A stretch of DNA of 64,000 nt, from positions 25,472 through 89,471 of the forward strand of contig JAIMKR010000009.1 of assembly GCA_020692325.1 (NCBI GenBank). Reading direction: 5' to 3'. Under the pieces are notes generated by a model. That model was not told where the DNA came from. It saw only the letters and a program-made list of their open reading frames with translations, and ran no database searches. The position numbers and the translations under genes were made by a program. Below are positions 33,129-38,905 of this stretch, one piece after another. Each line of letters begins with the position of its first letter. Position 1 is the stretch's first letter. The DNA comes from Desulfocurvus sp. (GTDB lineage: Bacteria; Desulfobacterota; Desulfovibrionia; Desulfovibrionales; Desulfovibrionaceae).

Positions 33129-33141
33129 AAAGGTGGCGGCA

Positions 33142-34029
33142 GTGGCGCAGTCTCCGCGGGAATCCCTCTCCGTCGTGGTCGTCACCGGGCTCTCCGGTTC
33201 CGGCAAGAGCACCGCGCTCAACGTTTTCGAGGATCTTGGCTACTTTTGCGTGGACGGCCTGCCAGCCGCCATGCTGCCCAAGCTGGCCAGCCTGTTCCTC
33301 GGCAAGGACGCCACGCATCGCGGCCTCGCCCTGGGCATGGACCTGCGTCAACATGAGTTCCTCGACCAGTGGAACGGCGCGGCGCAGGAGCTCTCGGCCA
33401 TGGGCGTCTCCGTGCGTGTGCTCTTCGTCGAGGCGAAAAACGACGTCATCATGCGCCGCTACGCGACCACCCGCCGCCCGCATCCTCTGGAGGGCGGCGA
33501 ACTGGGGCTGGAGCAGGCGCTGGCCAAGGAGCGCGAGATGCTTGCGCCGCTGCGACGCGACGCCGAACTCGTACTCGACACCAGCGAGTACTCCATCCAC
33601 GACCTGCGCCGCATGATTCAGGAACGCTTCATGTCCAAGGAGCCCGGCGGGCACGGAATGCGCGTGCATGTCATCTCCTTTGGTTTCAAATACGGCGTTC
33701 CGGCCGAGGCCGACCTGGTGTTCGACTTGCGCTTTCTGCCCAATCCCTATTTCGTGCCCGAGCTTCGCCCCATGTCCGGCAAGGACAAGCCCGTGGCCGA
33801 TTATGTGTTGGAGAGCGAGCCTGGTAAAACCTTCAAGGACAAATTTCTCGATTTCCTGCAATACCTGCTGCCGCTGTATGCGGCCGAGGGACGCTACCGC
33901 ATCGCCGTGGCCATCGGCTGCACCGGCGGCCGGCACCGTTCTGTGGCCATGAGCGAGTTGCTCTACGCCACGTTGCGCGACGCGGGGTATTCCGTGACAC
34001 TGGAGCACCGGCACTTCGACCTGGGGTGA
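33142..34029 (+). CDS. rapZ: RNase adapter protein RapZ (YvcJ family)
   Basis: 295 aa. N-terminal P-loop 'VVVTGLSGSGKSTALNVFEDLGYFCVDGLP' (written in shorter motifs: GLSGSGKS Walker A, 'EDLGYFCVD') and C-terminal 'AIGCTGGRHRSVAMSE' are diagnostic. In E. coli RapZ binds GlcN-6-P and small RNAs and delivers them to RNase E; in other bacteria it is a nucleotide-binding regulator. Start: GTG 33142 has AAGGTGG five bases upstream; an in-frame GTG at 33133 sits inside that site and is less likely. Followed by mannose-type PTS genes. Confidence 0.95.
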   Translation: MAQSPRESLSVVVVTGLSGSGKSTALNVFEDLGYFCVDGLPAAMLPKLASLFLGKDATHRGLALGMDLRQHEFLDQWNGAAQELSAMGVSVRVLFVEAKNDVIMRRYATTRRPHPLEGGELGLEQALAKEREMLAPLRRDAELVLDTSEYSIHDLRRMIQERFMSKEPGGHGMRVHVISFGFKYGVPAEADLVFDLRFLPNPYFVPELRPMSGKDKPVADYVLESEPGKTFKDKFLDFLQYLLPLYAAEGRYRIAVAIGCTGGRHRSVAMSELLYATLRDAGYSVTLEHRHFDLG

Positions 34030-34087
34030 CATCCCCGGGCTGGACCAAAACCTTTGCGCGGTCGCGAAGACGCGCGTGGGCGGAACA

Positions 34088-34525
34088 ATGGCGGAAACAA
34101 GCGAAGAACAAAAGCGTGAGAAACGTGTGGGCGTGCTCCTCGTCACCCATGGCGTGTTTGGCGGCTCGCTGCTCGACGCCGGCCAGATGATCGTTGGCCC
34201 CCAGGAGGGGATCGAGGCCGTGAGCGTGGTCGTTTCGAGCGGCGTGGACGAGATTCTTGCCGAACTCAAATCCGCGCTTTTGCGATTGGATCGCGGCCTT
34301 GGCGTGTTGGTGCTCACGGACCTTTTTGGCGGCACGCCGACGACGCTCAGTCTCTCCTTGCGCAAACTCGGCAACATCGAGGTGGTGGCGGGCGTGAACC
34401 TGCCCATGCTGCTTAAGGTGTTTCAATGCCGCGCGCTGCCGCTCTCCGAGCTGGCTGCGCAGGCTAGGGACGCCGGTCAGCAGGGCATTGTCGTTCCCGG
34501 CGAAATGCTGCGCAAGAAGGCGTAG
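34088..34525 (+). CDS. Mannose-family PTS component IIA
   Basis: 145 aa EIIA-Man domain. The active histidine is H21 in 'VLLVTHGVFGG', and 'LTDLFGGTPTTLSL' is the second conserved loop that surrounds it. It would take phosphate from HPr and hand it to IIB. ATG 34088 is preferred (GGCGG upstream); GTG 34076 is in frame. Follows rapZ by 58 bases and precedes IIB by 14 bases. With IIB and IIC it forms a mannose-class set, but no IID gene lies beside them. Confidence 0.88.
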   Translation: MAETSEEQKREKRVGVLLVTHGVFGGSLLDAGQMIVGPQEGIEAVSVVVSSGVDEILAELKSALLRLDRGLGVLVLTDLFGGTPTTLSLSLRKLGNIEVVAGVNLPMLLKVFQCRALPLSELAAQARDAGQQGIVVPGEMLRKKA

Positions 34526-34539
34526 GGGAGAGGGGAGCC

Positions 34540-35001
34540 GTGTTCTGGGTTCGCGTGGACAACCGTCTCATCCATGGCCAGGTGGTGGAGGCGTGGGTGC
34601 CCTACATCGGGGCCCACCACATCATCGTCGTCAACGACGCCCTGGCCGACGACGAGTTGCAGCAGGAGATCATGTCGCTGGCCATCCCGAACAACGTGGA
34701 GAGCGCCTTTCTCACCATCGATGAACTCATCGGCGACGCGCACCTTGACAAGGACGGACGAGAGAACACGCTGTTGCTTTTCTCCACCTGCCTGGACGTG
34801 CGCCGGGCCATCGAAAAGGGGTTGCGCCTGCCCGTGCTGAACATCGGCAATCTGCATTACGCCACAGGCAAGCGCCAGCTTTCGCCCAGCGTCGCCTTGG
34901 GACCTGAGGACGAGGCCTGCCTGCGCTTCATGCTGGAGCGCGGCGTGGAACTTGATTTTCGTTGCGTTCCGAACGATCATGACGCAGTGAGGTTCCCATG
35001 A
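34540..35001 (+). CDS. Mannose/sorbose-family PTS component IIB
   Basis: 153 aa. The phosphorylated histidine is H12 in 'VRVDNRLIHGQVVEAW', the standard IIB-Sor signature, and 'IIVVNDALADDELQQ' follows as usual. It accepts phosphate from IIA (upstream) and would pass it to a sugar carried by IIC/IID. GTG start with GGGGAGAGGGGAGCC immediately upstream. The stop overlaps the IIC ATG as ATGA (34998-35001). Confidence 0.9.
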   Translation: MFWVRVDNRLIHGQVVEAWVPYIGAHHIIVVNDALADDELQQEIMSLAIPNNVESAFLTIDELIGDAHLDKDGRENTLLLFSTCLDVRRAIEKGLRLPVLNIGNLHYATGKRQLSPSVALGPEDEACLRFMLERGVELDFRCVPNDHDAVRFP

Positions 35002-36845: not shown

Positions 36846-37724
36846 CTAAAGCAGGTGCCCGGCCTTCAGCGCGGTCTTGAGCGCATCCAGGTGCACGGCC
36901 TCCAGCGGGACGAGCGGCAGCCGGAATTCCAGCGTCATCTTGCCCATGAGGTGCACGGCGGTTTTGACCGGGATGGGATTGGTCTCCACGAACATGGCGC
37001 GGTGCAGGGGCATCAGCTCCAGATTCAAAGCCTGGGCGCGGGCGTTGTCACCCTTGAAATAGGCCTGACACAAGGCGGACATTTTGGCGGGTGCGACGTT
37101 CGAGGTGACGGAGATGACGCCCTGGCCACCCACGGACATGAGGGGCAGGGCGGTGAAGTCGTCGCCGGAGAGCACGCAGAAGTCGGGTCCGCAGGCCTCG
37201 ATGAGCTCGGCACCCTGCTTCATGTCGCCGGTGGCCTCTTTGCAGCCCACGACCTCCGGCACCTCTTTCACGATGCGGGCGATGGTCTTGGGCAGCACGT
37301 TCTGGCCGGTTCGACCGGGCACGTTGTAGAGCACGTAGGGCATGGGAGCCTCGGCGGCCAGCGCCTTGAAGTGGGCGACGAGACCGTCGGGCGAGGGTTT
37401 GTTGTAGTAGGGGGTGATGATGAGTGCGGCGTCCGCCCCGGCCTCCTTGGCCATGGCCACCAGCTCGATGGCCTCACGGGTGTTGTTGGACCCGGCGCCG
37501 GCGATGACGGGCACGCGGCCTTTGACCTGGTCCACGCAGATTCTGATGACCTCGCCCTGCTCTTTGTGCGAGAGGGTGGCTGCCTCGCCGGTGGTGCCGC
37601 AGGGCACAACGCCGTCGATACCTTGCTCGATCTGCCATTCGATGAAGGCCCTGTAGGCCTCCTCATCCACGGCGCCGTTCTTGTACGGCGTCACCAGTGC
37701 GGTAAACGCGCCGCGAAAGCTCAT
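36846..37724 (-). CDS. dapA: 4-hydroxy-tetrahydrodipicolinate synthase
   Basis: DapA condenses pyruvate with aspartate semialdehyde, first committed step to diaminopimelate and lysine. 292 aa TIM barrel. Visible: 'GTTGEAATLSHKEQ' (Thr pair binding substrate carboxylate), 'YYNKPSPDGLVAHF', catalytic tyrosine in 'YNVPGRTGQNV' and Schiff-base lysine in 'VGCKEATGD'. AAGGAGGACTGA precedes the ATG. The upstream gene on the same strand (the probable selenoprotein) ends 12 bases before it, so dapA is likely the last gene of the leftward operon. Confidence 0.97.
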   Translation of the reverse strand: MSFRGAFTALVTPYKNGAVDEEAYRAFIEWQIEQGIDGVVPCGTTGEAATLSHKEQGEVIRICVDQVKGRVPVIAGAGSNNTREAIELVAMAKEAGADAALIITPYYNKPSPDGLVAHFKALAAEAPMPYVLYNVPGRTGQNVLPKTIARIVKEVPEVVGCKEATGDMKQGAELIEACGPDFCVLSGDDFTALPLMSVGGQGVISVTSNVAPAKMSALCQAYFKGDNARAQALNLELMPLHRAMFVETNPIPVKTAVHLMGKMTLEFRLPLVPLEAVHLDALKTALKAGHLL

Positions 37725-37736
37725 TCAGTCCTCCTT

Positions 37737-38630
37737 CTAATCGGTGCCCATGCTCTGCATGAGCGTGAGTAGCCGCGGGTCCTCCTGATACTGCTCAGTC
37801 AGCCCGAAGAGGCTCATACGAATATTTTTGTCTTCCGTCCATTTAAATATGGAATCGTGCTCGGGCCAAGCCAAAATATCCACGCGCATGACCGACTTGC
37901 CCTCGGTGTAGGCGCGCACCCAGGCTATTTTACCACCGGCGGCGAGTTCGCCCGTCTGCCCCGCGCCGGGGCCGGAACCCAGCAGGATGTCGGGCAATGA
38001 ATTTCTGTCGGCGTGGGCGAGCAGCTCCTGTTCCTTACGGGCTCCCCAGGGGCTTAGCGCCACCACGAGCCGGACCTTCGGACGCAGCCTGCGCACAGCC
38101 ATCTCCAGCTGGTGGATGCGGCTTTCGGGCAGGGTTGGGGCTGCGTATGGCGTCGGTGGCAGCAGGATGACGCCGATCCTCGGTCCGCCGTGGGTATGAA
38201 GGATGTGCTCCTCGATTTTGTCCGAACCGAGCCAGTAGCCGCGGGGCTTCACTCCGGCGCGGGCAAGGGCCGTGCGTTCATCGGGCGTGACAAAGAGCAG
38301 ATCATGCCCGATGCGGTCGAATGCCGCCGCCATGAAGGCCAGTCGCTTGCGCGAGGGCGGAGGGGCTGGAGCCTGCCGGGCAAACTCGTTGCCGCCCGCG
38401 AGGAAATAGACGGGGGATTCCTTGGTGGCGTTCTTTCTAAACGCATTCTGCGCGCTGACCCGCCGGGCCAGTCCTCCAACGAGATGGCCCCCTCAGGATG
38501 GACAGGGCCTGACCTCGCCTTCGGTGTTGGCGCAAAAAAGGAGGGTGAGCCGAGGCCCACCCGCCAGTGCCCGCGAAGCAGGCGCGAGCGAAAGGAAGAG
38601 GAGAAGCAGAAAAAGGAAAGCGCGACGCAT
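37737..38630 (-). CDS. Probable exported selenoprotein, UshA-like, with in-frame TGA read as selenocysteine
   Basis: The ATG at 38630 overlaps the IHF-like gene's TGA by one base and opens with a signal peptide (residues 1-23, 'RRAFLFLLLLFLSLAPASRALA'-type hydrophobic core, AxA cleavage). The mature protein begins 'LTLLFCANTEGEVRPCPS', then TGA (38493-38495), then 'GGHLVGGLARRVSAQNAF' in the same frame and on to residue 297. 'NTxG...PC..U/C.GGLARR' is the N-terminal pattern of metallophosphatase (UshA-like) proteins, known in both Cys and Sec forms, so the TGA is read as Sec46 in C-P-S-U. A hairpin directly 3' fits a bacterial SECIS. Residue-level function unknown; a redox or metal site is likely. 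Confidence 0.8.
38465..38490 (-). promoter_or_regulatory. SECIS-like hairpin just downstream of the in-frame TGA
   Basis: On the minus strand, starting 2 bases after the TGA: GGGCCA, TCTC, loop GTTG, GAGG, AC bulge, TGGCCC. A 6-bp perfect lower stem and a 4-bp upper stem (one G.T) carry an apical loop with GU, as SelB-binding bacterial SECIS elements do. The loop lies 12 bases after the TGA, a little closer than in most described cases. Confidence 0.6.
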
Positions 38631-38905
38631 CAGTCGTTGATGAATTCCTTGAGTTCCTTGCCGGGACGGAAGAAGGGCAGGCGCTTGGGCTGAACCTCCA
38701 CCACCGCTCCTGTTTTGGGATTGCGTCCGGTGTATCCTTCGTAATCCTTGACCTTGAAGCTCCCGAAGCCACGGATTTCCACGCGGTCGCCTTCGACGAG
38801 GGCGTCCTTGATGGAATCGAAGAAGGCGCTCACGACCTTCGTGGCGTCATCGATGTGCAGCTTCTTTTCGTCCGCCAGAGCTTTGATCAGTTCACTTTTG
38901 TTCAT
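38630..38905 (-). CDS. HU/IHF-family DNA-binding protein (IHF-like)
   Basis: 91 aa histone-like protein. 'KSELIKALADEKKLHIDDATKVVSAFF' is the helical dimer body and 'VEIRGFGSFKVKDYEGYTGRNPKTG' runs into the beta arms; the arm-tip 'GRNPKTG' contains the proline that intercalates into DNA to bend it. 'KRLPFFRPGKELKEFIND' is closer to IHF than HU at the C-terminus. ATG 38905 has GGAGCGGTCA upstream; extension to 38983 adds non-conserved residues. Its stop overlaps the start of the selenoprotein gene (TGATG). Confidence 0.93.
   Translation of the reverse strand: MNKSELIKALADEKKLHIDDATKVVSAFFDSIKDALVEGDRVEIRGFGSFKVKDYEGYTGRNPKTGAVVEVQPKRLPFFRPGKELKEFIND

Follow-up and report, generated by a model that had tools for sequence, protein, structure and literature searches.

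A probable exported selenoprotein of the UshA-like family NF049981 in a relative of Desulfovibrio, on a metallophosphatase fold that appears to have lost its metal site

We analysed a stretch of 64,000 nt of DNA (the window, in whose positions all coordinates are given) from a bacterium related to Desulfovibrio. On the minus strand of the window a gene for a predicted selenoprotein lies between genes for an HU/IHF-type DNA-binding protein and dapA (Table 1). The frame runs from an ATG at 38630 to a TAG ending at 37737 and its sole break is a TGA at 38495-38493, residue 46, with C43-P-S on the N-terminal side and G-G-H on the C-terminal side, while its ATG overlaps the stop codon of the HU/IHF-like gene as TGATG. 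A standard list of open reading frames (ORFs) represents the gene by a tail of 198 amino acids (37737-38333). An earlier note on this DNA had described a single minus-strand frame broken by one TGA between C-P-S and G-G-H, the overlap of start and stop codons and the reduction of the gene to the 198-aa tail by plain gene calling, and all three are found in the sequence. The long frame that it proposed is matched over its whole length, across the TGA, by the curated profile NF049981, and the N-terminus resembles a secretion signal when judged by eye; the protein is probably exported. Elsewhere in the window (33133-35001, plus strand) a RapZ-like gene is followed by genes for mannose-type PTS IIA and sorbose-type IIB proteins.

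Table 1 Features at the selenoprotein locus (window positions)
Feature	Position	Strand	Details
Selenoprotein gene (predicted)	37737..38630	-	297 residues + TAG stop; NCBIfam NF049981 match
In-frame TGA, probable selenocysteine codon 46 (C43-P-S-U46)	38493..38495	-	TGA in 73/83, Cys in 10/83 relatives
Signal-peptide-like N-terminus: MRR, hydrophobic core, A-L-A	38562..38630	-	Judged by eye from sequence
HU/IHF-type DNA-binding protein, upstream	38630..38905	-	PF00216 E 1.3e-32
dapA (dihydrodipicolinate synthase), downstream; frequent neighbour in relatives	36846..37724	-	PF00701 E 4e-100
Most likely SECIS hairpin: 7-bp stem 38471-38465 with 38461-38455, loop GGC, +22 to +38	38455..38471	-	Comparative
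GTTG-loop hairpin of the earlier note; not conserved, probably not a SECIS	38465..38490	-	Folds in window

The match to NF049981, the "UshA-like (seleno)protein family 2" of NCBIfam, reaches 279.8 bits against a cut-off of 140 (E 2.1e-83, profile positions 1-262 of 262), and the window gene scored 271.1 bits in the search of its genome. The window protein gave no significant match in Pfam (best E 0.28) and none in a single-sequence search of the PDB, and matches to Rfam within the gene region all fell below gathering scores. A 2026 review lists NF049981 as family 2, with the motif CxxU and as annotated in GenBank (PMC13188914). The gene thus adds one member to an already catalogued selenoprotein family and is not new. 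All four named relatives that were identified belong to the Desulfovibrionaceae; one carries the label Humidesulfovibrio, and their identity to the window protein in the best segment is 59-76%.

To compare codon 46 across relatives we aligned 83 frames with a phmmer match at E <=1e-4, taken from the best-scoring loci and 20 picked regions and comprising 61 rows of the closer family (E <1e-20) and 22 distant ones (L022, L028 and L032 are absent from this alignment). In this partly hand-picked set 73 of the 83 rows have TGA in the column and 10 have Cys, a ratio that is not a frequency because 9 of the 10 Cys rows come from regions picked for showing no stop. The CxxU motif listed for NF049981, with Sec or Cys in the same column, is found among these relatives, and both the earlier note's statement that UshA-like proteins occur in Sec and Cys forms and the Cys that it had suggested seeking at the TGA position in homologs were confirmed. 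Residues G52, G53 and R56 are identical in all 83 rows, and only one Cys-Sec pair falls in columns with conservation of 80% or more. One Sec-form relative (L030, 1/83) has Val replacing the otherwise conserved first Cys. Across a sample of 395 genomes from the phylum five scored above the NF049981 cut-off, each with one TGA, and in a sample of 288 genomes from the bacterial family 150 did so; among the matches listed for the latter sample 21 were without a stop and every other row had exactly one TGA.

The open frame across the TGA is far beyond chance, because the curated profile matches its whole length and the column at codon 46 is restricted to TGA and Cys. Were the TGA a real stop, as the 198-aa reading of a plain ORF finder would have it, the locus would be a pseudogene or would encode a functional cytoplasmic tail starting at 38333. 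We consider this very unlikely given that conservation of the sequence preceding and surrounding the alternative start extends to distant relatives, that the TGA/Cys-only column is followed by the invariant G52, G53 and R56, and that in 38 of the 61 closer rows a stop codon overlaps the gene start or ends <=2 nt from it. The window is a single assembly and TGC homologs exist, so that TGA might also be a sequencing error for TGC or TGG; the recurrence of TGA in separate assemblies and genera, in 73/83 rows and in all but 21 among the family matches listed, makes the probability of such an error negligible.

The genome of the window contains matches over cut-off to all four components of the selenocysteine machinery whose presence the earlier note had suggested checking, namely SelA (533.6 bits), SelB (375.9 bits against 242.25), the tRNA-Sec selC (83.1 bits against a gathering score of 47) and SelD (315.3 bits against 125). 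The SelD gene of this genome itself has one in-frame TGA (L052 1501-2430; C21:301789-302718), and selenoprotein forms of SelD are known. Within the bacterial family a SelA match was present in 229 of the 288 genomes and the gene in 150, many SelA-plus genomes being without the gene. Nineteen gene-carrying genomes were without a SelA match, ten with the stop-free form only (all TGC when read) and nine with a TGA copy.

We compared the two forms in high-quality genomes (>=90% complete, <=5% contaminated), of which 120 carry the gene, 8 without and 112 with SelA; G416, G417 and G420 were left out of the SelA-plus count, leaving 109/112. Six of the 8 SelA-minus genomes have the Cys form only (G497, G503, G504, G505, G512 and G659) and two keep a TGA copy (G415, in ~820 contigs, and G647), as against 3 Cys-only genomes in 109 with SelA among the matches listed (G399, G400 and G502). 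The association of Cys-only status with SelA absence gives a Fisher p of 7e-7, on hand-compiled counts that ignore shared ancestry, and four of the six Cys-only SelA-minus genomes belong to one genus. Most rows in this comparison were classed by internal-stop count. G399 was taken as Cys from a 'none' entry, and G599 as TGA although its match is fragmented, with a TAG in one of the fragments. Both G502, whose SelA match is weaker (E 5.9e-51), and G539, whose SelA match contains an internal TAG (G539:C60:41434-42531), were placed in the SelA-plus group; the TGA gene is retained in G539. Within the genus g263 the codon is TGA in the SelA-plus genomes G499, G500 and G509 and TGC in the SelA-minus genomes G503-G505, G507 and G510-G512; the exceptions are G501 (65% complete, no SelA match) with TGA and G502 (weaker SelA match) with TGC. 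Cys forms accompany the absence of selA in most well-assembled cases and the direction is clear, with shared ancestry weakening the count. The TGA of codon 46 is almost certainly read as selenocysteine, as the earlier note had proposed, because its column is confined to TGA and Cys, the full Sec machinery is present and most well-assembled SelA-minus relatives carry Cys forms.

Two hairpins can form downstream of the TGA in the window and compete with one another. The earlier note had assigned the SECIS role to a GTTG-loop hairpin beginning 2 bases after the TGA. This hairpin does fold in the window (pairs +3 to +28), no better than expected by chance, and the role did not hold up in comparison: all ten pairs are formed in 1/52 Sec rows, namely the window alone, the 47 distinct Sec sequences have 50.6% of cells paired with no excess over shuffles, and dinucleotide shuffles fold as well in 51/200 cases for a 42-nt stretch and 37/200 for a 56-nt stretch. 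We rejected it as a conserved SECIS and, because it is not conserved, it is probably not the SECIS of the window gene.

The conserved SECIS is most likely a second hairpin, at +22 to +38, which spans the codons for L-A-R-R and the residues after; the majority of Sec rows retain it, whereas it has decayed in the majority of Cys rows. Counted in the closer rows, namely 52 with Sec and, after removal of one with an insertion, 8 of the 9 with Cys, its stem is complete in 35/52 Sec rows versus 1/8 Cys rows and lies above the synonymous-codon expectation in 49/52 Sec rows. Among the 47 distinct Sec sequences 92.7% of cells are paired, compared with 25.5-48.0% when the pairing is slid by 1-3 columns. 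None of 500 shuffles reached the percentage paired, the covariation score or the number of both-side changes (16 cells), and the two other measures of the five were reached by 9/500. Two pairs of the stem have changes on both sides, 15 of these 16 changes falling in the outermost pair (22-38), which is unpaired in 17/47 rows. Folding energy over codons +6 to +14 has a mean z of -1.69 in the 52 Sec rows and -0.49 in the 9 Cys rows, with controls in the closer Sec rows that are not all zero (means of -0.43 and -0.16 for two downstream windows and -0.46 upstream); the window's own energy over the hairpin is unexceptional (z -0.41 and -0.36). The stem is weak in some Sec rows, including L092 and L088 (4/7 pairs each), L090 (3/7), G656 (4/7) and G411 (2/7), the last with a two-codon insertion. 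Spacing between the Cys and G-G is altered in 5/10 SelA-minus Cys loci read, as expected once spacing is free of constraint, and the insertion in the Sec form G411 also falls there.

Within the flanks examined HU is found near the gene in 57/61 and DapA in 48/61 of the closer rows, and neither is found near it in the 22 distant rows. Such a neighbourhood suggests joint expression more than a common pathway. The ORFs listed for 20 loci, 19 around distant members and one around a Cys paralog, had no common partner by eye. The ORFs immediately upstream of the UshA-like gene at four distant loci (L117, L120, L121 and L122) share a similar start. Cys-form paralogs in G494 (L087/L136), G423 (L089) and G425 (L091) lie away from the HU-dapA site, and a gene with a type IV pilin N-methylation motif is near them in 3/3 loci read; T2SSE is near the paralog in L136, and AAA/peptidoglycan-binding genes are present in L136 and L091. 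The genus g281 (L086, L095, L139; G639:C11) carries a tandem pair of the same family, the Cys form directly followed by the Sec form, and would be a good place to compare both forms.

A profile of 39 relatives searched against the PDB matched the N-terminal domain of 5'-nucleotidases (2z1a, E 8.9e-24), SoxB (4uwq, E 4.7e-12) and UshA (1ush, E 4.1e-11). We located the dinuclear metal ligands and catalytic His of this fold using eight positions known from the UshA literature (E. coli UshA numbering). All eight are replaced in the window protein, D41, H43, D84, N116, H117, H217, H252 and Q254 of UshA corresponding to N, E, N, P, D, P, G and G respectively. The first two UshA ligands correspond to N35 and E37 of the window protein, and C43 and U46 follow <=11 residues later. 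An AlphaFold model built from five sequences had a mean pLDDT of 47.3, too poor to place the Cys-Sec pair. From these alignments we infer that the window protein keeps the N-terminal-domain fold of UshA/SoxB-type metallophosphatases and that its metal site is gone. Having lost the metal-ligand residues it should not be a phosphatase, and because those positions are lost the term 'metallophosphatase' denotes ancestry only. The earlier note had called the protein a UshA-like metallophosphatase; the UshA-related fold stands, but the enzyme label does not.

A true metallophosphatase or 5'-nucleotidase in which the Sec is incidental would accord with the profile similarity to 5'-nucleotidases and with the minority of the 39 rows that keep a ligand letter at single positions (D41 in 7, D84 in 7, H217 in 4 and H252 in 3). 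Such an enzyme is nevertheless extremely improbable at this locus, where every one of the eight positions differs, where UshA positions 252 and 254 are Gly in 34/39 and 35/39 rows, and where no room exists for a C-terminal nucleotidase domain because the protein has 297 residues versus 550 in UshA.

The literature searched gave no function for the NF049981 family. A redox role for the C-x-x-Sec pair is plausible, and we favour a periplasmic selenol/thiol redox protein because heme motifs in distant members suggest electron transfer. Matches to Cytochrome_C554 occur in two of the 39 aligned members, and four ORFs with 4 CxxCH motifs (L126, L127, L130 and L133) either overlap or extend distant UshA-like matches, which together suggest electron transfer in those branches. 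SelB with Sec-tRNA would decode UGA46, guided by the hairpin 22-38 nt downstream for which there is comparative support. The predicted Cys-x-x-Sec pair lies immediately behind the strand on which the first metal ligands once sat. In the most likely mechanism the selenolate at 46 would use the former active-site cleft to attack a substrate of the disulfide, sulfane-sulfur or peroxide type. Cys43 would resolve the resulting intermediate by forming a selenenylsulfide, which carriers of electrons in the periplasm, perhaps c-type cytochromes, would then reduce. The frequent neighbours HU and DapA, which are not redox proteins, and the Val for the first Cys in L030 count against this redox mechanism for Cys43 and Sec46, in which we place about as much belief as doubt.

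Certain features of the family could also be read in terms of binding, the Cys-Sec pair of a SoxB/UshA-derived selenoprotein holding a soft metal or metalloid or carrying sulfane sulfur and having no redox role. The fold is that of SoxB, and 14 of the 39 aligned members match the SoxB model. SoxB's partner carries sulfur on a cysteine, and the lone C-P-x-[CU]-G loop resembles a metal knuckle; the neighbours HU and DapA, not being redox proteins, also fit a binding protein. However the single pair of this kind among the well-conserved columns and the heme motifs of distant members speak for electron transfer, and we consider the binding protein rather unlikely. A metal-free periplasmic selenol/thiol redox protein stands, on the sequence comparisons made here, at roughly even chances with all other roles combined, chiefly sulfur or metal binding. 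More tentatively, and with our judgement tending somewhat against it, an entire clan of exported proteins may have converted the metallophosphatase fold to a selenol enzyme that works without metal, in which a loop with Cys-x-x-Sec or Cys-x-Sec replaces the dismantled dinuclear metal site and whose partners in some branches would be c-type cytochromes.

If true, such a conversion would provide a redox-active selenoprotein on a fold without thioredoxin ancestry. The family-level evidence assembled here covers the Cys forms in relation to selA, a likely SECIS hairpin separated from a nearby decoy and a dismantled metallophosphatase. It makes the function of UshA-like selenoproteins testable as redox chemistry or sulfur binding, not as phosphatase activity, and cautions that a good-looking hairpin directly after a UGA need not be a SECIS.

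Compared with known systems the window protein is closest to NF049981, with which it shares a whole-length match at twice the cut-off, the CxxU motif and the Sec/Cys position; no difference was found that would exclude it, and it is very probably a selenoprotein, probably exported, and an ordinary member of that family. The UshA-like (seleno)protein PCGU (NF041198), with a model of 519 positions, has in common with it the N-terminal pattern N-T-x-G...P-C...[UC]...G-G-L-A-R-R, and its profile matches the window protein weakly, at 34.3 bits. This is far under the cut-off of 275, and the window protein has one more residue between Cys and Sec, its motif being CxxU and not CxU. A CxU UshA-like family (COG0737) is recorded in a 2008 marine survey (PMC2398784). 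Certain CxU relatives (L023 and the Cys-bearing L018) extend into heme motifs. With the N-terminal domain of UshA, the 5'-nucleotidases and SoxB the likeness is one of fold, seen by profile (2z1a, 4uwq and 1ush), and the window protein differs from all of these in being without the metal ligands and the C-terminal nucleotidase domain and in having gained a probable Cys-x-x-Sec pair.
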